DNA of 64,000 nucleotides, taken from contig NZ_AP024452.1 of assembly GCF_016865485.1 (NCBI RefSeq), positions 5,044,501 through 5,108,500 on the forward strand, given 5' to 3'. This document shows, one piece after another, positions 208 to 53,559 of this stretch. The notes beneath the pieces are model-generated. The model saw only the letters and a list, made by a program, of their open reading frames with translations. It had not been told where the DNA came from and did not search any database. The first letter of the stretch is position 1. Each line of letters starts with the position of its first letter. A program made the position numbers and the translations under genes. The stretch comes from Luteitalea sp. TBR-22 (GTDB lineage Bacteria; Acidobacteriota; Vicinamibacteria; Vicinamibacterales; Vicinamibacteraceae).

Positions 208-395
208 TGGTACGCCCGAGAGGATTTGAGCCCGGTGGCGAGCCCGGAGGCGGAGTCACTGGCCTGAAGGCTCTCGTGGCCGTACCACCCCGCGAAGCGA
301 GGTGGTACGCCCGAGAGGATTCGAGCCCGGTGGCGAGCCGGAGGCGGAGCCACGGGCCTGAAGGCTCTCGTGGCCGTACCACCCGCGAAGCGAGG
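208..395 (-). repeat. two tandem copies of the tRNA-Arg(CCG) 3' tail with linkers
   Basis: The last 22 nt of the neighbouring tRNA (T-arm 3' half, acceptor 3' strand and CCA) recur downstream of it in the tRNA direction. The copy at 303-324 is exact and the copy at 208-229 has one mismatch. The linkers are 71 nt (325-395) and 73 nt (230-302) and are closely similar to each other. In tRNA orientation each linker has a short GC hairpin followed by a GGCTCCG-rich box (complement of 338-351). The same layout follows the tRNAs near 30.4 kb and 46 kb. Resemblance to the E. coli tyrT repeats is in organisation only. Confidence 0.85.
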
Positions 396-2040: not shown

Positions 2041-3573
2041 ATGCCCCAGCCCCACCTCGCCACGCGCATCCTCGTCGGAGCTTCCCGATTCACCGGTCGA
2101 TGGGTCGTCCGCGCGCTGCTGCTCGCCGCGGGACTGCTCCTCGCGGTCACCGCCGGCTTCGCCGCCTACGCGGTGCTGATGCTGCCCGACGTGGAGCCCT
2201 GGCACACCACACGGCTGCGCGGCGAGTTCACCGAGTTCGACGCGCCGGGCATGGACTTTGCCGGCTACCAGGCCAGGGAAGCGAGGCTCTTCGAGGAAAT
2301 GGCGGAGGCCGTCGCCGCGATGCCGAGGGACGCGGCCTACTTCGCCGGCAGCCGCTACGACCCCAACGGCCTCGGCCGCCGGCTCGCCGGCGGCCAGCCG
2401 TACAACCGCACCACGCGTCGCACGCCGGCCGGCCCGCTCAAGGGCGCCGCACTCCTCATACACGGCCTGTCCGACGGCCCCTACTCGATGCAGAACCTCG
2501 GCGACGTACTGCTCGCCCAGGGCTTCGAGGTGACCATCCTGCGCCTGCCCGGCCACGGCACGCTGCCGAGCGCGATGGTGCACATGGAATACGACGACTG
2601 GGTCGCCGCGATGACCATCGCCGCGCGCGACATCAGCAGCCGCCTGCCGAAGGATCTGCCCTTCTACCTGGCGGGCTACTCCACCGGCGGCTCGCTGGCG
2701 ATGACCTACGCGCTCGACCGCATCACGCCCGGCGCCGATCCGTCGCTACGCACGCCGACCCGCGTGCTGCTCTTCTCGGCCGCCATCGAGCTGACGCCCG
2801 CCGCCGCACTGACGCCAATCCTCGACCTGTTCGCGCGCCTGCCCGTGCAGGCCTTCGAGAAGGTGAACTGGCAGTCGATCGGCCCCGAGTACGACCCGTA
2901 CAAGTTCGTGTCCTTCCCGGTCAACGCGTCGCGCCAGGTCTACAAGGCCACGCGCAAGCTGCAGCGCCAGCTGCTCGAGGCCGAGCAGGCGGGGCGCCTC
3001 GGCCAACTGCCGTCGGTGGTCGCCTTCCAGTCGGCCGTCGACTCCACCACCGGCGCGAACGGCGTGTCGACGACCGTGTTCGGGCGATTGAAGGGCGCGC
3101 AGCATCGCCTGGTGCTGTTCGACGTCAATCGCCACGCCAAGTACGACATCGTCCGCCAGCCTTCGCCGGGCACGCTCGTGACGTCGGTGGTGGACGGCTA
3201 CGCCAACGGCACGCGCCAGCACACGCTGCTCCTCGTGACCAATCGCTCGCGCGAGACCGAGGAGGTCGAAGTCCGCGAGTACGCTCCCGGACGCCGCGAT
3301 CCCGTCGTCACGACGCCCGGCCTGAGCTGGCCCCTGCACCTCGTGTCGGTGGGCCACGTGTCGGTGCCCTTCCCGCCGAAGGACCCGCTGTACGGCTATG
3401 AGGAAGGGTCCGGCGCCAACGGCATCCCGTCGATCGGCAGCTGGCGCGTGCGCGGCGAGGAGGGCGCGATCGTGCTGCCACTCGGCGCGCTGGGTCGCAT
3501 CCGCGCCAACCCGTTCTGGCTGGTGCTGCAGCAGCAGGTGGAGATGCTGGCGGCGGCCGACACGACCCACTGA
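2041..3573 (+). CDS. membrane-anchored alpha/beta hydrolase
   Basis: A 510-residue protein with one N-terminal membrane segment (about 23-49) and an alpha/beta-hydrolase domain. HGLSDG (141-146) fits the oxyanion-hole region, GHGTLP follows at 171-176, and GYSTGG (212-217) is the nucleophile elbow with Ser214. The family includes lipases and esterases, and the substrate is unknown. The last 120 residues form a beta-rich tail after the expected catalytic His. The anchor suggests action at the periplasmic face of the inner membrane. The gene converges on the PagL-like gene, with 14 bp between stops. Confidence 0.75.
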   Translation: MPQPHLATRILVGASRFTGRWVVRALLLAAGLLLAVTAGFAAYAVLMLPDVEPWHTTRLRGEFTEFDAPGMDFAGYQAREARLFEEMAEAVAAMPRDAAYFAGSRYDPNGLGRRLAGGQPYNRTTRRTPAGPLKGAALLIHGLSDGPYSMQNLGDVLLAQGFEVTILRLPGHGTLPSAMVHMEYDDWVAAMTIAARDISSRLPKDLPFYLAGYSTGGSLAMTYALDRITPGADPSLRTPTRVLLFSAAIELTPAAALTPILDLFARLPVQAFEKVNWQSIGPEYDPYKFVSFPVNASRQVYKATRKLQRQLLEAEQAGRLGQLPSVVAFQSAVDSTTGANGVSTTVFGRLKGAQHRLVLFDVNRHAKYDIVRQPSPGTLVTSVVDGYANGTRQHTLLLVTNRSRETEEVEVREYAPGRRDPVVTTPGLSWPLHLVSVGHVSVPFPPKDPLYGYEEGSGANGIPSIGSWRVRGEEGAIVLPLGALGRIRANPFWLVLQQQVEMLAAADTTH

Positions 3574-3587
3574 GGGCGTACTCGTCG

Positions 3588-4211
3588 TCAGTGGATCCAG
3601 GTCAGCGCGGCAACCAGCGCGTTGGAATTCGCGCCCGGGTTGTACTCGGTCAGCACGCCGTCGGACATGTGGTGGATGCGGTACTCGACCGAGAAGACAC
3701 CGCGGCTGTGAATCGACACCGCGATGCCGCCCCCGCCCTGCGGGGTGAAGTTGATGTTGGAGATGTCGCGCGGGATCCGCCCGCTCGAGTACACGACCCC
3801 GGCGCCCGCCGACAGGAAGGGCCGCACCGTCGATCCAGGCGAGAAGTAGTGGCGGAACACGAGCGCCGCCGACCCTGCATAGCGGGTGCTGGCGGCATCG
3901 TGGAACAGGTACAGGGGACTCAGTTCGGCGGAGATGACGAAGTTGCCGCGCAGGATGCCCGGCGCCACCGGATCGGTCAGGACATGGCTCAGGCGAACGC
4001 CGAACGCGATGAACTCGCTGTCGGGAAGGCCACCCCAGACGTCCATCGCGGCGCCGGCGCCGAGCAGCAGTCCGAACTCGCTGTTGCCCTTGCGGAAGGC
4101 GTCGCCGGTCGGCCGATCCGACTCCTCCCCGGCGGCCGAGGGCACCAGCCCCCCCATCGTCATGGCCGTGACGATGACCGCGATCGACAAGGCACGTTGC
4201 GTAAGTCGCAT
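3588..4211 (-). CDS. PagL-like lipid A 3-O-deacylase
   Basis: A 207-residue outer-membrane barrel candidate with a signal peptide (about 1-27). Alternating hydrophobic strands lead to a C-terminal EYRIHHMSDG block, where His181 and Ser183 match the PagL His-x-Ser catalytic pair, with Glu189 and NPG (191-193) close behind. PagL enzymes remove the 3-O acyl chain of lipid A in the outer membrane. The protein ends in an aromatic-containing strand, as barrels do. The start at 4211 is chosen because the signal peptide begins there; the open frame upstream is antisense to the next gene's leader. Family assignment is probable, activity inferred. Confidence 0.7.
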   Translation of the reverse strand: MRLTQRALSIAVIVTAMTMGGLVPSAAGEESDRPTGDAFRKGNSEFGLLLGAGAAMDVWGGLPDSEFIAFGVRLSHVLTDPVAPGILRGNFVISAELSPLYLFHDAASTRYAGSAALVFRHYFSPGSTVRPFLSAGAGVVYSSGRIPRDISNINFTPQGGGGIAVSIHSRGVFSVEYRIHHMSDGVLTEYNPGANSNALVAALTWIH

Positions 4212-4297
4212 ACGACGCTCCGCAGGCGTATGATAACGCTGTCCGGTCGAGCTGTCGCGTGATTTCGCGCGGCTCGCCGGCGCCCGGAGGCGAGCCC

Positions 4298-30329: not shown

Positions 30330-30406
<77 letters not shown>

Positions 30407-30557
30407 ACTCGCCACGCGAGTTGGCCGCGCCCGGAGCACGTCAGGCACTCGGCTCCGGTCTGCGACCTCGCCGTCGTGCTCGACTCCCTCCGGGCGCGTC
30501 AGGCCCTCTGCTCCGGGTCTGCCACTTCGCCATCGTGCTCGACTGCCTCCGGGGTCG
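30407..30557 (+). repeat. tRNA-Arg(TCG) 3'-tail repeats with linkers
   Basis: A 73-nt linker (30407-30479) after the CCA leads to an exact 19-nt copy of the tRNA tail (30480-30498), then a second, degenerate copy at 30539-30557. The linker starts with a hairpin, AACTCGCCACGCGAGTT, continued from the CCA, and carries the box GGCTCCGGTCTGCGACCTCG (30451-30470). The layout and linker sequence match those at tRNA-Arg(CCG) and tRNA-Lys(CTT). The next gene ends at 30681; the 123 bp between show nothing else. Confidence 0.85.
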
Positions 30558-45989: not shown

Positions 45990-46065
45990 GGGCCGGTAGC
46001 TCAATTGGCAGAGCAGCAGACTCTTAATCTGCGGGTTGAAGGTTCGATTCCTTCCCGGCTCACCA
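45990..46065 (+). tRNA. tRNA-Lys (anticodon CTT), host gene of the integrated element
   Basis: A 76-nt cloverleaf: acceptor GGGCCGG/CCGGCTC with one G-U pair, D-arm GCTC/GAGC, anticodon loop CTCTTAA giving CTT, T-arm AAGG/CCTT around TTCGATT, discriminator A, encoded CCA. The element's left repeat lies over its last 9 nt and leaves the sequence unchanged, so the tRNA should stay functional. Confidence 0.96.
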
Positions 46066-47542
46066 CCTTTTCTTCAGCACCTTCAGATCTCGCCAAGTAG
46101 CTGAAAAGCGGTGCGGTTACGGCGGTTCGATTGAATCGATTCCCGTCGTACGCGATCCCTTCCGGAAAGAACAGCGCCTGCAGCCGCTGCTTGTAGTCGA
46201 GCGACGCCTGCACCCACAGGTCTGACGCGCGCGGCAGAATGCGTTCTGCGAACGCCAGGATGCCCTGTACGTCGAGTTCGTCGGTGGCGTCGGCGTGGTG
46301 GTCGATCTGCCCCAGCGTGAGCTCCTCGCGCAGCCGGTCGCGCTGCCGCTCGTAGCTGGTGCGGTCGATGGACTGCGCGAACAGGAACGCATCGTCAAGC
46401 CGATCGAGCTTCTGCTGGATGGCCTTCACCCGCCGGTCCTGCTCCGCCGTTCTGTCCTTCGCCTCCGCCCGCCGCTGCTCCCACACGTAGAGAATCCGGT
46501 CTGCGACCAGGCGCATGTAGCCGGCGGAAGGTTGCAGGAGCGCGAGTTCGTCCGCGAAGGCGCCCTCGAGTGCAGCCTTGCTGATGTTGACGGCCCGGCA
46601 CTGGCGCTGGCAGTGGTAGTACGCGTAGTAGCCGTTCCTGCCCTTCGACCAGCTGCCGGTCAGCGGTCGTCCACAGGTCTCGCAACGCACGAAGCCGCGC
46701 AGCGGGAAGTCAGGATGGTTGCGCTGCCGTGGGCCGGCCACGACGACCCGGCCATCGAGCACCGCCTGGGCGCGGTAGAACGTGGCCTCCTCCACGAGCG
46801 GTTCGAAGTCGCCGCGAGTGGATACGCCGTAGTCCGGGCTCTCGACCTTACCGGCGTAGATCGGGTTCCGCACCATCTGGCCGAAGCTCTGAGGCGAGAT
46901 CCGGAGCCCCTTCCTACTGCGAAGCCCGGCCTCGGTCGCGCGGGCGATCACTTCCTGCTTCGTGTACTGCCCAGTCGCCAGTTCCTCGAACGCCCGGCGG
47001 ACGAGCGGACCGCGGTCTGGATCGTGAACCAGGCTCGTTGTCGACCACTTCGGCGCGTTCAAGTATCCGAGCGGCGCCGGGAATGTCCAGCGCCCGAGCT
47101 CCAGCGCCGCACGCATGCCGGCGCGAGTGCGTTCTGAGCGCACGTCGTTGTCGAACTGCGCGAACGCGGCCAGCACGCCTTCCATCAGTTTCCCGGTGGA
47201 CGTGTCGTCGATCGGCTCGGTGACCGACCGCAACGAGATGCCCAGGGACTTCAGGTGTGCCCGCAGCGCAAAGTGGTCGTACTTCTCCCGCGCGAAACGC
47301 GTGAGGTTGTAGACCACGACGAAATGCACCTTGCCCTTGTGCGTGCGGCAGAACGTCAGCAGGGCCTGGAGCTGCGTGCGGTCGGTGGTCTTGGCGCTCT
47401 CGCCTTCCTCGTGAAACCGTTCGAGGACCTCGTAGCCTTGCCGGCGACAGTAGTCCTCACAGGCGCGCACCTGCGTCGGGAGACTCAGGTTCTCCGTCTG
47501 CTCCTTCGTGCTGACGCGTACGTAGATCACCGCGCCGACCAT
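46001..47542 (-). CDS. large serine recombinase (integrase of the tRNA-Lys element)
   Basis: A 513-residue serine recombinase. YVRVSTKEQ near the start carries the catalytic Ser11; NLTRFAREK and RSERTRAGM complete the resolvase domain (1-150). The recombinase domain follows (about 165-270), then a zinc ribbon with CETCG and CQRQC (about 300-335) and a long coiled coil (about 365-430). Its frame runs through the left attachment repeat and stops inside the tRNA on the opposite strand, so the last 18 residues are encoded by the tRNA complement. The ATG at 47542 precedes VGAVIYVRVS; upstream residues are extraneous. It should integrate and excise the element at the tRNA 3' end. Confidence 0.92.
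   Translation of the reverse strand: MVGAVIYVRVSTKEQTENLSLPTQVRACEDYCRRQGYEVLERFHEEGESAKTTDRTQLQALLTFCRTHKGKVHFVVVYNLTRFAREKYDHFALRAHLKSLGISLRSVTEPIDDTSTGKLMEGVLAAFAQFDNDVRSERTRAGMRAALELGRWTFPAPLGYLNAPKWSTTSLVHDPDRGPLVRRAFEELATGQYTKQEVIARATEAGLRSRKGLRISPQSFGQMVRNPIYAGKVESPDYGVSTRGDFEPLVEEATFYRAQAVLDGRVVVAGPRQRNHPDFPLRGFVRCETCGRPLTGSWSKGRNGYYAYYHCQRQCRAVNISKAALEGAFADELALLQPSAGYMRLVADRILYVWEQRRAEAKDRTAEQDRRVKAIQQKLDRLDDAFLFAQSIDRTSYERQRDRLREELTLGQIDHHADATDELDVQGILAFAERILPRASDLWVQASLDYKQRLQALFFPEGIAYDGNRFNRTAVTAPLFSYLARSEGAEEKVVSREGIEPSTRRLRVCCSAN
46057..46067 (+). other. left attachment repeat (attL core)
   Basis: GGCTCACCACC spans the last 9 nt of tRNA-Lys(CTT) plus CC. The same 11 bases occur at 53083-53093. 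The flanks differ at both ends, so 11 bp is the exact match length. Confidence 0.75.
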
Positions 47543-47601
47543 GTCGGTCAGCGTAGCCCCGTCACAGGTCGCTGGCAAGCCGCGTCCTCGTGGCATGACC
47601 G

Positions 47602-47784
47602 TCAGTGGACGCGGCGGTCCCGCGTCGCGAGGGCCATCAGGATGCGCGCCATGGCATCGGCGTGACGGACGAGTTCGCGCACGTCGTCGTCAGACAGCGT
47701 CGTGGCCTCGTCGCCGAGCAGTTGGCGGCAACGCGCGATTGCGATCGGTTCCGGCGCGGACTCGAGACGTTCAGCGGCATCCAT
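47602..47784 (-). CDS. small accessory protein of the element
   Basis: A 60-residue acidic/helical protein (MDAAERLESAPEPIAIARC...), with LGDEATTLSDDDVRELVRHAD as its core (split here at 20 residues: GDEATTLSDDDVRELVRHAD). It ends 59 bp before the recombinase start on the same strand, the position of excisionase or control genes in many serine-recombinase elements. No DNA-binding motif is obvious, so the role is inferred from position. Confidence 0.55.
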   Translation of the reverse strand: MDAAERLESAPEPIAIARCRQLLGDEATTLSDDDVRELVRHADAMARILMALATRDRRVH

Positions 47785-47835
47785 CGCGGTCCCCCCAGGT
47801 GCACGAGCGTGCGTGTTGAATGGGTGGCGCGCTCC

Positions 47836-47863
47836 GGCGCGTCGATGTGGCAGTCGACGCGCC
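47836..47863. repeat. perfect 10-bp inverted repeat upstream of the accessory gene
   Basis: GGCGCGTCGA and TCGACGCGCC face each other across 8 bp (TGTGGCAG). It lies 52 bp upstream of the accessory protein start and could be an operator or a transcript hairpin. Confidence 0.65.
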
Positions 47864-48563
47864 ATTGGTCAGGAGCGCGGATGCGGCGTTGCGCCGGCAT
47901 CCCCCGCGGGACGATAGGTCCGCGCGGCGACGGTCAGGCCTGAGGCGGCGACCGTCTGGTGGCGTGTTTCAGTCCTGCAGACTCTCCGAGTCGTTGGCGT
48001 TCGCGCGGCTGTGATGCGATACGTGCTCCTGGGAACACGCACCGCGAGACACCGCCGAACCGTCTATCGCGTTGCTGAGGGTGCGTCCGCACCGTGCTGC
48101 TGGCAGCAGGGCCGGTTGCGCGCTCCGGAGGCCGTTGTGGCGAACCGGAGGAGTGCCGTGCGGAACTTGGACGATGGGGCCACGTTACGCCTGCGCGATC
48201 GCCGCGTCAATACCCTCTCGGACGCTCGTCACCCCCGCGACCATCGCGTACCGGCGAGCTGTGCCGCGCGCAGGCGTCGTCATGCCCGCAGGCCCGGCCA
48301 CCGGCCGGGTCGACGCGGAGCGGAGAGCATTGACGACGACGAGCACGGCGCCAGGATCGAAGACGCGATGGTCCCTGCGGAGCGATCTGGACGCACGCAC
48401 CCTGCGCCTGCTTCCGCATCCTGCTGCCACGCCGGTGGTCTTGTTCGCACGCAAGCGTGACACGCGCGCGGGACCACGACCAGGGCTCCGATTTGGGCGC
48501 GGGTGTGGCGCTGTTGTCCTGCAGCATCTGGGCACGCATGCCGCTGGGTGCGGCACGGGCAGT

Positions 48564-48639
48564 CGATGGCGTGAACGACCCTCTGTTGGCGCGCTGGGGT
48601 CGGAGGCCAGGCACGAGGGTGGGGTCGTTCACGCCATCG
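48564..48639. repeat. 18-bp perfect inverted repeat with 40-bp centre
   Basis: CGATGGCGTGAACGACCC (48564-48581) and its exact reverse complement (48622-48639) flank 40 bp. Each arm is followed on its right by CTGTTGG (48583-48589 and 48643-48649), so a direct repeat is superimposed. It lies 89 bp beyond the end of the replication-relaxation-like gene. Stem length without coding context suggests a functional hairpin or protein-binding site. Confidence 0.7.
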
Positions 48640-48727
48640 TCTCTGTTGGGGCATGCACAGCGGCATGTTCCGGCGAGGCGGCAGACAGCGCCGCCTGCCC
48701 TTGCCTTGTGCGCCAATCGTCGCTGCG

Positions 48728-49885
48728 TCAAGCGTTTGCGGATGCACTATCGGCGTGGCTTTCCAAGGGAGAGAGAGGGCTGGGTGAGGCCTCCGGAACC
48801 GGGGGGCCAACCTGACGCGATTTTCGCTTGGCCCCTCGCCTGGCCCACGCATCGCGGTCCATGGCAGGGGTGAGCTGCAAGTACTGGCGGTCGAGCACGA
48901 CCACCTCCACGCGCGCGCAGCCGTGTATCCGATCGTCGGCGAGGACCGGCGACGGTGCTTCCCAGAGCACCCGATCCCCCCGCACGCGCCAGGCCCGATA
49001 CAGCGCCTGGATCTTCGCGCTGCCCTGCCTGGTGAACTCGCGTCGGAGGTACGGATCATCGGGCTCGCCGACGTGTGCTCCCCGTGTGTGGCAGTCAGCG
49101 AAGTACGTCTCGAGTGACCTGCTCACGCTCGGGTTCATCGGCGTCCAGAGCTCCTCGCGGACGGCGGCCCTGTACAGGGCGACGGCGGTGCGGAATCGAC
49201 GCGGCACGAGCAGCCGAAGCGTCCACCGATGGACCATCCGAAGCAGGCCGACGTGGCGGAGGAGGAACTGGCGGAAGTCCACCGGCACGCGCCGGTTCAC
49301 CAGGTACAGGAACACCAGGTGCTCCATGCTGTCCTTCTCGATGCCGATGGGCAGCTTGTCGGGGAAGCACCGGAGGGTCCGCTGGCGACCGGCCCCGAAC
49401 GCAATGTGAGGGTAGTCCTCCCGCTGCATGCGGTTGTCACGCATCTGCGAGAAGAACTGCAGCTTGTCATCGGCCGGGCTCAGCCACCAGCACCGACGGT
49501 CCTCCAGGAGGGCGTCGAGGATCATCACGCGCTCGACAATGCGGCCGAGGGTGTGGAGTCGACGGTTCCGGTTGTCGGACTGGCCTATCGCCTCGTAGAG
49601 GGGCTTGTGGTGGACGTGGTACAGGCGTCCGCGGCGCGCGGGTCCCGGCTCGATGACACGGATGAATCCGCGGGCCACCAGCCGCCCGATGAACTCGCGG
49701 CTGTTGTGGCCGCGCACGGTGCCGGTGAACGTGCAGTACTGCCGTTCGAGGAAGCACCCGGCGTGCACCATCACGGTCACCAGGAATCGGCATTGCCGCT
49801 CGGTGAAGCCGAAGGCCGAGACGGCCTGCACGCGCGCTCTGGTCACGCTGTCCCACGTGTCGCTGGGCGGATACGCGGGCGTCAC
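48728..49885 (-). CDS. replication-relaxation-like protein of the element
   Basis: A 385-residue protein starting at a GTG that overlaps the preceding stop (GTGA). Residues about 20-100 form a winged-helix-like region (FGFTERQCRFLVTVMVHAG, then REFIGRLVARGFIRV), as in replication-relaxation proteins of mobile elements. The middle is helical with many charged residues (YRAWRVRGDRVLWEAPS) and the C-terminus is low-complexity Ser/Pro. No nuclease or helicase motif is clear. Coupled translation with the next-upstream gene suggests a two-protein complex acting on DNA. Confidence 0.55.
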   Translation of the reverse strand: MTPAYPPSDTWDSVTRARVQAVSAFGFTERQCRFLVTVMVHAGCFLERQYCTFTGTVRGHNSREFIGRLVARGFIRVIEPGPARRGRLYHVHHKPLYEAIGQSDNRNRRLHTLGRIVERVMILDALLEDRRCWWLSPADDKLQFFSQMRDNRMQREDYPHIAFGAGRQRTLRCFPDKLPIGIEKDSMEHLVFLYLVNRRVPVDFRQFLLRHVGLLRMVHRWTLRLLVPRRFRTAVALYRAAVREELWTPMNPSVSRSLETYFADCHTRGAHVGEPDDPYLRREFTRQGSAKIQALYRAWRVRGDRVLWEAPSPVLADDRIHGCARVEVVVLDRQYLQLTPAMDRDAWARRGAKRKSRQVGPPVPEASPSPLSPLESHADSASANA

Positions 49886-50751
49886 AGGAACTCCTCCATG
49901 CCGCGCGCGCGTGGTGCGGATCGTCCCCCGCCGCGGCCGCCGGTGACGTACACCCGGAACCCGGCCTTGCTATGGCTCGCGGCGTGTGCGCCGCGGTAGT
50001 GCGGCGTGAACAGCTCGACGTCCTGGTGCAGTGCGCGCCCGTCGACCTCGTACTCGATCCGATAGTCCGGGAAGTGCACCTGGCCGTCGAAGTACGGCAG
50101 GTCGTGGTCGCGGGCCCAGCCCCGGATCTCGTGCTCGTCACGGTCGGGCCGCCCATCGCTGTCGGCACGTCCACGATTGGGGGCCTGGAGGAACTCCTGG
50201 TACTCGCGCTTGAGGTCCTGCTCGAGTACGACGCGCCGCACCTCGAGCCCACCCTGCTGGTCGCGGAGCCGCTCCTCCTCCTGGCGGTACGTCGCGTACA
50301 GCTGCGAGTCGTGCTCCAGCTCCCGCTCCCGGCTGACGCCGGCGTAGAAGGTCTGAGACGGGCCGTCATCACGCTCCGGGGCGTGCGCGTCGAGCAGCTC
50401 GCGGCCGTCGCGCGTCAGCGTCAGCCCACGCTCATCGTCGCCGAGGTCGACGCTGGCGACCAGACCTTCGTCGCGCAGGTGCGCGAGGGTGTCGCGGTCG
50501 GCGTCCAGGTCGTGCTCGGGCACGACTCTGAACGCGCCGACGGCCGCCAGCGTGCGGCTGTCCTCGCCGTTCAGTTCGTACATCCGGTCGCGGTCGACCA
50601 CCAGTTCGCGCTCCTCGCCGCGTGGCAGGTCAAGGTCGCGCCCCAACCCGTCCCGCGGGTCCAGGTCGTCGCGGTCGCCGATGTCGTACACGCGGGCGCG
50701 GTCATCACCGGTGCGCTCACGATCACGTGCGTCATCTCGCCGATCGAACAT
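49882..50751 (-). CDS. element protein with winged-helix and possible nuclease-like C-terminus
   Basis: A 289-residue protein with an Asp/Arg-rich N-terminus (FDRRDDARDRERTGDDRAR), a winged-helix-like region (about 55-115), a helical linker rich in Glu and Arg, and a C-terminal block FPDYRIEYEVDGR...DVELFTPHYRGAHAAS. The last part resembles the PD-(D/E)xK-like ends of replication-relaxation proteins, without the usual Lys. The ATG at 50751 is preceded by GGAGG 6 nt away. It is probably the partner of the downstream gene. Function is unproven. Confidence 0.5.
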   Translation of the reverse strand: MFDRRDDARDRERTGDDRARVYDIGDRDDLDPRDGLGRDLDLPRGEERELVVDRDRMYELNGEDSRTLAAVGAFRVVPEHDLDADRDTLAHLRDEGLVASVDLGDDERGLTLTRDGRELLDAHAPERDDGPSQTFYAGVSRERELEHDSQLYATYRQEEERLRDQQGGLEVRRVVLEQDLKREYQEFLQAPNRGRADSDGRPDRDEHEIRGWARDHDLPYFDGQVHFPDYRIEYEVDGRALHQDVELFTPHYRGAHAASHSKAGFRVYVTGGRGGGRSAPRARGMEEFL

Positions 50752-51153
50752 GACTGTCCTCCAGCCTTGGCTCGGCCTCGCCGCGCTACGGCCAGGCAAG
50801 CCAGCAAGGGGTTGCGTTGGGGTGTTCGTGAAGGCGCCCGGGCAAATGCCGCGAGGGCGCTTCAGGAAGGCGCTGACCGTCCGGGGCGGTGTGCCGCAGG
50901 GACGGTCAGGGCTCGGTCGCTGGGGAACTCACTGCCTCTTGGGCACACGAAACGAGGCGTGGCGACACTGCTGGTACCCAGCAATGAACGCATCGAGCAA
51001 GAGCCGTTGCAGCCCTGAGGCCTGGCGCCTACGCCGTCAAGAGGCTTCTCGCGAGAGCAGGCGAATGCGGCTCCGGGGCTCCGACTATCCCTTTGCCTGA
51101 GCTTTCGTCACAAACGGGCGGCACTGTCCAATGCCGCCCGTCCAACCTGATCT
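50752..51153. other. element intergenic region with a strong hairpin
   Basis: About 400 bp between the DNA-protein pair and the cargo pair. Perfect 10-bp arms CTGACCGTCC and GGACGGTCAG (50873-50882, 50900-50909) enclose 17 bp. The hairpin is downstream of the cargo genes and upstream of the pair, so it could terminate the first or control the second. GC content falls from about 50950 towards the cargo genes. Confidence 0.5.
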
Positions 51154-52254
51154 TTAGTGCTCGTGAGCTAGGGCGATGTAGACGTCATAAGTGAAGGGAG
51201 CGCGCTGCCCCCTCATGTCATCCTGGTAGCGCACCCTCGCACGGTAGCGGAACAGATTGCCATGTCGATCGCGCTTCTGCGACTCCTCGAAATCCAGCGA
51301 TATGCGTGTGACACCAGCTTGCGTGAGGGTCATCAGTTCAGTGGGCTCCGCGGCTCCGTCATGGTTCCAGTCGACCCATATCCGCAACTTTGGGTAAACG
51401 GCATCAGCCGAGTCGATCCAGCGGTCAGCGTTCCCTCCGGCCTGAGTCCGGTCGTACTCGGCCAACGCCAAGTAGCCATTCGGTTCGGCGGACGCGCTTT
51501 GTGGTGTCGCATTGCCAAACAGTTCGCGCCCGTCATCGATGATCCCGTTGCCGTTGCGGTCGAGTGCCAGCCAGCCGTCACCAGAACTGGCGGACGTCCA
51601 CGCTACTTGCTCAGGTGTGCCTGATGCGCGGACGTCGAAGAGAACGCCCTCATCGTGAGCGGTCAACTTAAAGCCAGCACCATCGAGGTCGATTAGAATC
51701 GGCGACCCCAAGCCACATTCGGTCGCGTCGTTCATCCCGTCGCAGTCGTAGTCAGCGGAGCCGGTATCGCAGTTGTGAGCAGCATTAGGATGGATGTTGT
51801 AGTCGCCATCGGCGCAATCGCCATCCGCAATAGCGTAGCCATCGCCATCATGATCGCCAGTCGAGACGCTCGACGAACTCTTGCTCTCTTCAACCGTTCC
51901 ACCAAACGAGTGCGTGGAATTCGTATACCACCCACCATCAGACAGATTGCTGCAGCTCTTCGAGACATTGGCGAACGAGTGAAAACCAGTGACGCTGTGG
52001 CTACACCCATTCGGCGGCCCATTTCCGTTCACACCGGCCAAGTCGACGGACGCGGCGCAATTCCCGTCACAACCATTATGTGTCGTGACGTGCACGATGC
52101 TTGTTGATGCGGTCATGGTGACTGACGACGAACTGTCGCGCGTGATGCCAACGGCGGCGGACCACGCCGTGTCACCCGGGCAGCCTTTGGCAGCATAGAT
52201 CCTGACGCCCAAGCAGCACACAAGAATGGTAAGGGAAACAATGAACTCTCGCAT
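51154..52254 (-). CDS. secreted protein with metal-binding repeats and EF-hand-like motifs
   Basis: A 366-residue exported protein with a signal peptide (about 1-22). The N-terminal third is Ser/Thr/His-rich with paired Cys (HNGCDGNCAAS, NGCSHS). The middle carries a MopE-type putative metal-binding run: DGDGYAIADGDCADGD, CDTGSADYDCDG. The C-terminal part has calcium-loop-like DRNGNGIIDDGRELFGN and DWNHDGAAEPTEL. Base composition is clearly lower in GC than flanking chromosome. It follows the other cargo gene by 7 bp. A calcium-stabilised surface or secreted protein is likely. Confidence 0.65.
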   Translation of the reverse strand: MREFIVSLTILVCCLGVRIYAAKGCPGDTAWSAAVGITRDSSSSVTMTASTSIVHVTTHNGCDGNCAASVDLAGVNGNGPPNGCSHSVTGFHSFANVSKSCSNLSDGGWYTNSTHSFGGTVEESKSSSSVSTGDHDGDGYAIADGDCADGDYNIHPNAAHNCDTGSADYDCDGMNDATECGLGSPILIDLDGAGFKLTAHDEGVLFDVRASGTPEQVAWTSASSGDGWLALDRNGNGIIDDGRELFGNATPQSASAEPNGYLALAEYDRTQAGGNADRWIDSADAVYPKLRIWVDWNHDGAAEPTELMTLTQAGVTRISLDFEESQKRDRHGNLFRYRARVRYQDDMRGQRAPFTYDVYIALAHEH

Positions 52255-52261
52255 GACCACC

Positions 52262-52792
52262 TCACTGATTCGGCCGATGGTGGTACGACACGCCAGGCAC
52301 GACGTGCTTCTGCACATAAGTGCTGACCGCCTGAAATGCACTGGGCGATAAGCGGTCCGCGCAATCAGATCTGGCTCGTAGGAACACATCCTGCGAAGCC
52401 TTCACTTGGGCTAGGCGCTTGCTCAGCGACCAATCAAGTTGCCGTTTACCTTCGTGCTCATCGTTGAGTGGTGCGCGCATAGCATCTGATTCGGCGATTG
52501 CGCGCTGCCCAATCGTGAGGATCTGGCGCATGTCGTCCTCGGTCACATGAAGGTTCAGATCGGCAAGTGCCTTGACCTTGACCGGGTCCGCTTCATGCGC
52601 CCCTTCGGGATAGGCAACCAGCACCACATTTCGGAAGAAGTGCTCCCACGCGATGTGAACAGGGATCTTTTCCGGATTCTTCTTCCCGTCGATAGTGATG
52701 TATTCAGGATCCTGCCCTATGGATGGGCTTGTTGCATTCCCGAGCACCACGACGCTCAGTACGAGCGCGGTTACCGAAGCGTACTTCCACAT
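52262..52792 (-). CDS. small exported protein, first gene of the cargo pair
   Basis: A 176-residue exported protein with a signal peptide (about 1-26). The mature part starts with EYITIDGKKNPEKIP and is then mostly helical and charged (EDDMRQILTIGQRAIAES, LSKRLAQVKASQDVFLRAR). GGAGGAG lies 4 nt before the ATG. No characterised family was recognised. Low GC and position next to the metal-binding protein mark the two as one cargo unit. Confidence 0.6.
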   Translation of the reverse strand: MWKYASVTALVLSVVVLGNATSPSIGQDPEYITIDGKKNPEKIPVHIAWEHFFRNVVLVAYPEGAHEADPVKVKALADLNLHVTEDDMRQILTIGQRAIAESDAMRAPLNDEHEGKRQLDWSLSKRLAQVKASQDVFLRARSDCADRLSPSAFQAVSTYVQKHVVPGVSYHHRPNQ

Positions 52793-53082
52793 GCCTCTCC
52801 TCCTCACGCGCGTGATGAGACAGACCAAGTCGTGGCGGCTTGCGTTACCGCAGCGCCACAAGCAGGGCTCTCGTTGGGTGTGCAATCCAGGATAACGATG
52901 GAGTAGCAGGAAACGAACATTCACACGATGCGGCAGTGCGTTCTGGAGCATACCGGCCGCAATCGCACCTCGGTCAGCCCGGTTCGTGAGCAATCATCGT
53001 CGCGACACACGTCAGGCAACGTGCCGCAGACCGTTCACCTGGCGCAGGCAACTCTCGAGCTGGTTCCAACTCGCGCAAGTTA
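52793..53082. other. element right-end region without gene
   Basis: 290 bp containing the cargo promoter region and the right terminus. On the minus strand a frame entering from the right attachment repeat stays open to a TGA at 53012-53014; in a circular form this would be the end of the recombinase gene. Confidence 0.5.
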
Positions 53083-53093
53083 GGCTCACCACC
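53083..53093 (+). other. right attachment repeat (attR core)
   Basis: The 11 bases match the left repeat exactly. The following sequence, CTCACTCCGTTCGGGTGA (53094-53111), makes a hairpin-like start of the 73-nt linker, as seen right after the other two tRNA genes. Confidence 0.72.
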
Positions 53094-53188
53094 CTCACTC
53101 CGTTCGGGTGATTCGCCCGGAAATCATCAGCCACTCGGCTCCGGTCTTCGACCTCGCCTCGTGGTCGATTCCTTCCCGGCTCACCACC
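53092..53188 (+). repeat. displaced tRNA-Lys linker and 3'-tail repeat
   Basis: The linker (53092-53164, 73 nt) contains GGCTCCGGTCTTCGACCTCG (53137-53156), nearly identical to the box after tRNA-Arg(TCG). It is followed by an exact 24-nt copy of tRNA-Lys positions 46044-46067. It therefore looks like the native tail array of tRNA-Lys, pushed 7 kb away by the element. Confidence 0.82.
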
Positions 53189-53559
53189 ACACATCCTTCC
53201 TGTTCAACAACTTAGGGCCACCTCGAGGGGCTCGGCGCCCGTCGTCTCAACAATATCTCCACGCGTAAGCGCCTCGTAGCGTGTGTTCATGCTCGTGAAC
53301 CCGCAGATTCGGGCGCATTCCCGCACACGTGGGCAACCGCGAATGTACGGTTCCTTCCCGGTTGCCGGCGGGACGGTCGCCGAGCATGTCACCGCCTGGA
53401 TGCGGCTGACCTTGACGGCCGTTGAGCGGCGATCGACCCTCGACGCATCTGTCCGCCTACTGTGGTGAGTGCTGCAGTGCGGTCCCGGCGCCTCTCGGCC
53501 AGGTCGGTCCGGCCGGTAGCGCCTGCCGTCCCTTCGGTATCCGGAAACGGGGAACTCTG
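53189..53559. other. region without recognised gene before the VWFA gene
   Basis: About 370 bp. Short open frames exist on both strands but lack ribosome binding sites and motifs. It presumably carries the promoter of the VWFA-related gene. Confidence 0.45.

Follow-up and report, generated by a model that had tools for sequence, protein, structure and literature searches.

Within a 64,000-nt stretch of the genome of the soil acidobacterium Luteitalea sp. TBR-22 (the window, whose positions serve as coordinates throughout), we identified an integrative element of 7,026 bp (46068-53093) with an 11-bp core, lodged inside tRNA-Lys(CTT). Its comparison with related loci indicates that it is very probably a member of an acidobacterial family of large-serine-recombinase elements whose circular form has its attachment site, attP, within the coding sequence of the recombinase, 25 codons ahead of the stop codon. 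The evidence comes from the ends of the element, the reading frame that crosses attP, and the sites at which relatives are found in other genomes (G and L numbers are our handles for genomes and loci, respectively).

Ends of the element in tRNA-Lys(CTT)

A sequence-only reading of this DNA had proposed an element of about 7.0 kb in tRNA-Lys(CTT), and our analysis confirmed its ends, with 11-bp repeats at 46057 and 53083. The window contains just three copies of the repeat, GGCTCACCACC (at 46057, 53083, and 53178), all on the + strand, compared with a chance expectation of 0.005 per 7 kb of single strand calculated from base composition. This core reads as the 3' strand of the tRNA acceptor stem plus CCA. 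As the same reading had held, tRNA-Lys is regenerated at the left end (tRNA call at 45990-46065), and a tRNA fragment lies at the opposite end, which is the arrangement of a tRNA island.

A perfect 24-bp repeat (46044-46067 and 53165-53188) is longer than the core and could place the right end at 53165 instead, making the linker part of the element; this linker of 73 nt (53092-53164) follows the CCA of the 53083 copy, which ends at 53091. The sequence-only reading had set this longer match aside in favor of 53083, and we consider an end at 53165 extremely improbable. The linker lies directly 3' of tRNA-Lys in the same-genus genome G002, its first part does so in G001, and it forms a covarying trailer hairpin (see below). 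In addition, a right-arm motif of attP (GGTTCCAACTCGCGCAAGTTA; 53062-53082) abuts the 53083 copy but is 82 bp away from 53165, and a circle closed at 53165 would forfeit the conserved recombinase tail described below. We rejected 53165 on the position of this arm and on two comparisons with G002.

For these comparisons, we fetched 30 tRNA-Lys loci, our own included, 29 of which had readable sequence 3' of the tRNA. In G002, tRNA-Lys is followed by a homologous linker and then by a tail copy that is occupied by a related, decayed element. BLASTN matched positions 273-378 of this locus to 53083-53187 of the window at 88.7% identity and matched positions 4222-4280, past its second attR, to 53176-53233 at 79.7%. 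When the window flanks were joined at 53083 and aligned with G002, we obtained 162 identities (score 290) versus 124 identities (score 128) when they were joined at 53165. Both genomes thus point to one ancestral site with the order tRNA, linker, tail copy, and flank, which was entered at the tRNA in the genome of the window and at the tail copy in G002. Insertion at the tRNA would push the native trailer unit (tail, inverted tail, hairpin, and direct tail copy) rightward, so that the longer 24-bp repeat comes to lie outside the element. The sequence-only reading had anticipated a relative with tRNA, CCA, linker, and tail copy in this order. The order was found, but the site is not truly empty, as the tail copy holds the decayed element, and the G002 tRNA-Lys (L110, in C16) lacks an encoded CCA (it ends GGCTCATAT), with its direct tail copy retaining CCA; both points count against our interpretation. 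The protein encoded in the right flank was unusable for finding synteny, being of a large family with matches in 60/60 genomes.

The attP arm recurs in the family. Where related elements occupy tRNA-Lys, tRNA-Ala, or tRNA-Glu genes, a form of it, GGTTCCAACTnGCGC, adjoins the tRNA tail at the right end. In all, 15 attR arms lying left of a tRNA-tail core were detected across 10 genomes, one in the window and 14 at other sites in nine genomes. Arms related to that of the window precede GGCTCACC in tRNA-Lys, GGTCCACC in tRNA-Ala, and GGGGACGCC in tRNA-Glu genes.

The recombinase gene and its tail across attP

The serine recombinase module that had been predicted inside the element is encoded there: the protein contains Pfam Resolvase, Recombinase, and zinc ribbon (Zn_ribbon_recom) domains (E = 8.7e-35, 1e-9, and 6e-10, respectively) and matches the integrase family phrog_95 (E = 1.2e-85). 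Ser29 within YVRVSTKEQ, which we take to be the catalytic serine motif of large serine recombinases, is invariant in 12/12 rows of our alignment A3. The earlier reading had missed two points: the gene extends across attP, and what it called the tail array is a structured trailer that follows many tRNAs.

In integrated elements, the recombinase open reading frame (ORF) reads antisense into the tRNA gene (VVSREGIEPSTRRLRVCCSAN for Lys, LVDLTGIEPVTS for Ala, and LASPSGIEPESRP for Glu). Followed across the core into the right arm, the same frame encodes VSLTCASWNQLESCLRQVNGLRHVA and a stop codon, and a circle closed at 53083 gives a gene for a 536-aa protein. Integration would swap this conserved tail for antisense-tRNA residues (GIEPSTRRLRVCC, GIEPVTS). 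Among the 15 arms found by the DNA motif TTCnAAC before the core, a motif that spans the SWN codons, 14 encode 25 to 30 such residues (exactly 25 codons in 10/15) and one, L200, stops after 13. A peptide search of the fetched loci gave 25 matches, including the other 14 arms, for a total of 26 distinct tail-coding arms with L200. The distance from anchor to stop is 25 codons in 18/26 copies, and in these 18 standard copies the stop codon stands at a single position but is TGA in 10, TAG in 6, and TAA in 2. The consensus of the standard tails is VSxxxASWNQLxxWLRxxxxLRRAA, and of the 25 tails that terminate at a stop codon, 22 have Ala as the final residue. For codons 10-25 of the 18 standard tails, the ratio of nonsynonymous to synonymous polymorphism (pN/pS) was 0.49 in frame (bootstrap 0.45-0.52) versus 1.14 and 1.72 in the shifted frames. 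By comparison, these data show that a conserved C-terminal peptide is specified by the right arm, in frame with the recombinase.

Conservation of the arm could instead reflect a constraint on DNA bound by the recombinase at attP, considering that the first codons are situated some 24 bp or less from the crossover, in a region expected to be bound at attP, and that our search motifs overlap the SWN codons. We regard this possibility as highly unlikely: codons 10-25 are still constrained, with third positions the most variable (0.48 versus 0.28 and 0.23), all three stop codons are used at one position, pN/pS exceeds 1 in the other frames, and ORFs continuous across attP exist (see below). Several features of the data nevertheless weigh against a conserved coding tail. 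The start of the peptide was partly selected for by a DNA motif overlapping the SWN codons, with exactly 25 codons in only 10/15 of the arms so found, and the 25-match set was gathered by a peptide pattern that favors the motif. Moreover, 8/26 tails are not 25 codons long, with lengths of 23, 24, 27, 28, 29, and 30 codons, 13 in L200, and no stop within 140 codons in L229, which carries the motif and was excluded from the pN/pS calculation; that calculation covers standard-length copies only. Finally, in an AlphaFold2 model of the L243 recombinase (predicted template modeling score 0.42), the tail forms a helix (residues 504-519) of moderate confidence (predicted local distance difference test 67-76) after a disordered stretch.

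Continuous genes and insertion sites in the family

We searched 60 genomes, our own included, with the recombinase and obtained matches at E<=0.001 in 39, many of them weak; scans of genome contigs and of viral contigs gave 29 and 2 loci, respectively. One IMG/VR viral contig (L243) carries an intact 520-aa ORF that is continuous across attP and ends in ...PSWNSVRTWLSSFQAYRAA. A second (L242), which also has matches to tail-fibre and tail-lysozyme proteins, encodes the conserved tail behind a frameshift farther upstream in the gene. Partial recombinase genes carrying the tail were found at L234 and L238, and at the tandem junctions of L187 and L225/L199 a second, decayed recombinase 3' of the right arm of the first element regains the tail. 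Genes that are continuous across attP and end in the conserved tail thus exist in this family.

A tblastn search with residues 401-512 over 243 fetched loci yielded 38 distinct recombinase 3' ends, not counting L243. Half of these (19) are at intact tRNAs (Ala, 10; Lys, 6; Glu, 3) and 9 are at tRNA fragments; the remainder comprise 5 native tails, 3 direct tail copies in trailer units (T'), and 2 others. The three ends at trailer tail copies (L110, L151, and L046) were assigned by reading, our script having labeled five ends as other, and recombinases at a tail copy occur in G044 (Lys) and G005 (Ala) as well as in G002. By this comparison, the sites of the family are tRNA-Lys(CTT), tRNA-Ala(GGC), tRNA-Glu(TTC), tRNA fragments, or T' of a host trailer unit, a classification that L037 and L058 (2/38 ends) do not fit.

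Two further observations concern these sites. In the genome of the window, a frameshifted recombinase of the same family adjoins tRNA-Ala(GGC) (L075, locus positions 2413-3949). At L214, L215, and L228, recombinase elements are in tRNA-Lys-like fragments that end in the anticodon loop (ATTAAGAG), such as other islands might leave. We also considered whether any plasmid or phage homologue is near enough to be the element itself and rejected all candidates: 2,184 plasmid and 714 phage records matched, with every best place below 60% identity.

Trailer units behind tRNA genes

The 73-nt linker had been likened to the linker of another tRNA locus, and this likeness held: it shares the core TCAGnCACTCGGCTCCGGTCT...CGACCTCGCC with a unit 3' of tRNA-Arg(TCG) at 30330. 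Counted by eye, about 15 of the 44 tRNA matches on the 6.47-Mb contig carry such a trailer unit downstream, consisting of a short loop, an inverted tail copy (A'), a hairpin core (TTCAGGC...GCTCGA), and the direct tail copy T', sometimes in tandem. We built a covariance model, R1, from 14 chosen units (12 from the genome of the window and one each from G005 and G044); both the linker unit and the tRNA-Arg(TCG) unit were in the training set, and R1 hits there are not independent. In the 14 units, 12/24 pairs change on both sides, with a covariation of 0.268 versus 0.088 for shuffled and at most 0.117 for slid alignments. In all 70 matches fitted by R1 (64 distinct, training sequences included), 17/24 pairs do so, with a covariation of 0.271 versus 0.096.

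At E<=0.01, R1 found 19 places in the genome of the window, 12 of them training sequences, and 18/19 either belong to arrays that follow a tRNA or correspond to the displaced Lys unit; five tandem hits follow a single tRNA-Met (5877216-5877654 of the contig). In other genomes, R1 found 55 places (two in training), 41 of which have an intact tRNA on the same strand within 560 nt upstream, and the distance from tRNA to R1 is 24-35 nt in 31/55. Of the 14 places without an intact tRNA, 9 are immediately preceded, judging by eye, by a tRNA tail or a fragment of one, 1 adjoins a contig edge, and the other 4 show neither feature. Hits were present in 7/7 genomes of the family (G000-G006) and in 14/60 genomes searched. 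Across the phylum, 6/297 genomes had hits at E<=0.001 under the stricter filters of Infernal; the hits listed there included just two of the seven genomes of the family. The hairpin as modeled therefore looks to be mostly a feature of one bacterial family. One hit lies beyond the order, in G227, where tRNA-Glu(TTC) is followed by tandem units whose inverted and direct tail copies are long and whose core differs somewhat (L204).

When each tail was scored against each downstream region, a tRNA's own tail scored best of 44 in its own downstream sequence for 9/44 tRNAs as a direct copy and for 6/44 as an inverted copy. This result was modest; the majority of tRNAs lack a unit, and tails are shared among related tRNAs. 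Pairing of A' is possible with either the tRNA tail or T', and duplex z scores for tail and anti-tail agree with such pairing, with a mean of -2.65 in the unit group (16 entries, grouped by eye and including two Met tRNAs that have no unit) versus 0.01 in the 29 others. In the window, Rfam gave only three tRNAs at the gathering score and no RtT match, and neither Rfam there nor the literature we searched yielded a description of tRNA trailers of this kind. The trailer hairpins may represent a structured element, so far undescribed, that follows many of the tRNAs in one bacterial family.

Considering that the units contain tRNA tails and that three of them serve as insertion sites, they might be remnants of successive rounds of integration and excision at the ends of tRNAs and not functional trailers. 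We think this unlikely, since no attP arm was seen in the units that we read, the inverted tail copy tracks each tRNA, the spacing from the tRNA is held at 24-35 nt in 31/55 hits outside the genome of the window, and compensatory changes extend across 64 distinct sequences.

Other trailer arrangements were also observed. A second kind, different from the R1 unit, starts right after CCA with GCCTTCG and often includes a sequence resembling GGCTGGCAAG, which might base-pair with the CCA end; it follows tRNA-Lys at L107 (G004), L112, L117, and L122 and, in the genome of the window, tRNA-Val(TAC), tRNA-Tyr, tRNA-Gly(TCC), and tRNA-Ser(GCT). In G001, tRNA-Lys is followed by two places (L166 and L167; 6110700-6134000) that have near-identical sequence ending in a tRNA-Lys tail and a trailer unit, as if the unit traveled with an island. 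A weak third tail copy in the window, at about 53341, could not be tied to anything.

Other genes of the element

Features of the window are collected in Table 1. Three genes, orf87, orf385, and orf305, occur near a recombinase in G044 (tRNA-Glu), G048 (tRNA-Lys), and G059 (tRNA-Ala), with orf385 and orf305 about 10 kb from the recombinase in G059. The match of orf385 to MarR-like winged-helix proteins is weak and covers part of its AlphaFold2 model (Foldseek E = 0.035). The orf411 protein contains Asp/Gly-rich stretches. Among the six element proteins, of which orf87, orf305, and orf385 carry no assignment, no Pfam, PHROG, or NCBIfam match to relaxase or conjugation genes was found, and a defense system was rejected, with no PADLOC match of note (best E = 0.038).

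Table 1. Positions of the element, its genes, and trailer units in the window
Feature	Position	Strand	Remark
Two tandem trailer units after tRNA-Arg(CCG) 396-472	214..370	-	R1 at 309-370 and 214-276, both in training
Two trailer units after tRNA-Arg(TCG) 30330-30406	30432..30554	+	R1 at 30432-30495 (training) and 30491-30554 (not in training)
tRNA-Lys(CTT)	45990..46065	+	Regenerated at left end of element
Large serine recombinase, integrated form, 531 aa	46001..47596	-	Last 19 codons (SREGIEPSTRRLRVCCSAN) antisense to tRNA-Lys
attL core, GGCTCACCACC	46057..46067	+	
orf87	47602..47865	-	Recurs beside related recombinases; no convincing family match
orf385	48728..49885	-	Recurs in related elements; weak MarR-like winged-helix match
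orf305	49882..50799	-	Recurs in related elements; no family match
orf411, probable cargo	51154..52389	-	Partial match to phrog_3677 "protease" (E = 2.4e-10)
orf243, probable cargo	52262..52993	-	No family match
Native recombinase C-terminal end, 25 codons and stop (VSLTCASWNQLESCLRQVNGLRHVA)	53012..53089	-	Cut off from gene by integration
attP right-arm motif, GGTTCCAACTCGCGCAAGTTA	53062..53082	+	Abuts core
attR core, GGCTCACCACC	53083..53093	+	Right end of element
A', inverted tRNA-Lys tail copy	53107..53122	+	In displaced native trailer unit
Trailer-unit core hairpin	53118..53180	+	R1 58.4 bits; sequence in R1 training set
T', direct 24-nt tRNA-Lys tail copy	53165..53188	+	Homologous copy used by related G002 element

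Discussion

Our findings suggest a sequence of events in which the circle would make a 536-aa enzyme ending in ...ASWNQLESCLRQVNGLRHVA, and integration would convert it to a 531-aa form ending in antisense-tRNA residues. The swapped C terminus would mark the integrated versus the circular state, probably altering the activity, stability, or direction of the enzyme. We tentatively propose a model where the structured trailers of the hosts offer spare attB sites and, through alternative pairing, could also mask or free the tRNA 3' end, while a tail made only from the circle (or from a tandem array) would let the enzyme report its own integration, setting direction or lifetime without a separate directionality factor.

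We also considered two other interpretations. The swap may be incidental, with a dispensable tail and an attP placed in the gene merely to pack the integrase and its att site together. The integrated form keeps all three recognized domains and the structural model places the tail after a disordered stretch, which would suit this interpretation, but the tail is under purifying selection, and we regard an incidental swap as possible but doubtful. In the second interpretation, the tail is a degradation or stability signal, and integration stabilizes or destabilizes the enzyme. ClpXP recognizes Ala-ended tails as degrons, and mycobacteriophage integration-dependent systems reportedly use ssrA-like tags. 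Here, 22/25 stop-reaching tails end in Ala, most copies end in -AA or -VA, and one viral-contig copy ends in LAA. A degron seems rather unlikely to us, however, as the ASWNxLxxWLR helix suggests a further role and the interpretation draws on general ClpXP preferences; the WLR helix suggests a protein contact.

Serine integrases serve as genome-engineering tools, and the choice of direction is a central question for their use. The elements described here provide a natural family where integration itself apparently edits the C terminus of the enzyme, and the conserved tail lends itself to tests by removal or grafting. They also explain recombinase C termini such as GIEPVTS or GIEPSTRRLR as antisense tRNA, and two genomes show alternative insertion, at the tRNA or at its tail copy, at a single ancestral site.

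Parts of this arrangement have counterparts in known systems. The E. coli tyrT repeats, or rtT RNA, are tandem repeats that lie downstream of a tRNA gene and include a copy of the 3' end of the tRNA. Unlike these, the trailers described here are found behind numerous tRNAs, and each combines an inverted copy of the tail with a conserved core hairpin. In BPs-type integration-dependent immunity, attP lies in the repressor gene, whereas here it lies in the recombinase gene.

An attachment site within a serine integrase gene is described in the available parts of PMC4701971 for streptococcal integrative and conjugative elements (ICEs) in rumA, with phage Mx8 as a tyrosine-integrase precedent, and the element studied here, as judged from its relatives, likewise has attP within the recombinase coding sequence. 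The rumA ICEs and integrative and mobilizable elements (IMEs) resemble it in that att is inside a single serine integrase gene whose C terminus changes upon integration; they differ in that a protein-gene target is disrupted, the frame of both proteins changes, and no conserved tail is described in those parts of the paper (PMC4701971). In the Myxococcus phage Mx8, attP is in int, the prophage integrase gets a new C terminus, and there are two neighboring attB sites, as far as the portions of PMC4701971 and PMC6070905 at hand describe them, but the enzyme is an unrelated tyrosine integrase. Archaeal suicidal integrases of the SSV type (Sulfolobus spindle-shaped virus) also have an attP-containing recombinase gene that is split by integration. 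These are tyrosine recombinases whose two halves are thought to be inactive (PMC8371274, in excerpt), whereas our recombinase is of the serine type, only the last 24 codons leave, and its three domains stay in the integrated ORF. The excerpt also calls self-disrupting recombinases exclusively archaeal, a statement already qualified by the rumA and Mx8 cases.

Regarding the target, the pertinent passage of PMC4383910 (database issue of 2015) states that tRNA genes are known as targets of tyrosine recombinases alone. PMC3218068 (2011), in the corresponding passage, calls serine recombinases in tRNA genes rare and names phiRSM1 (tRNA-Ser) and mycobacterial actinomycete integrative and conjugative elements (AICEs; tRNA-Leu). 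These share a serine recombinase and a tRNA-gene target with our element but concern other hosts and other tRNAs, and att within the gene is not mentioned in that passage (PMC3218068). In the literature we searched, we found no tRNA-targeting serine integrase with attP in its own gene. What is new relative to all of these systems is the combination of att within the recombinase gene with a tRNA target, together with the conserved tail and the trailer hairpins as alternative attB sites.

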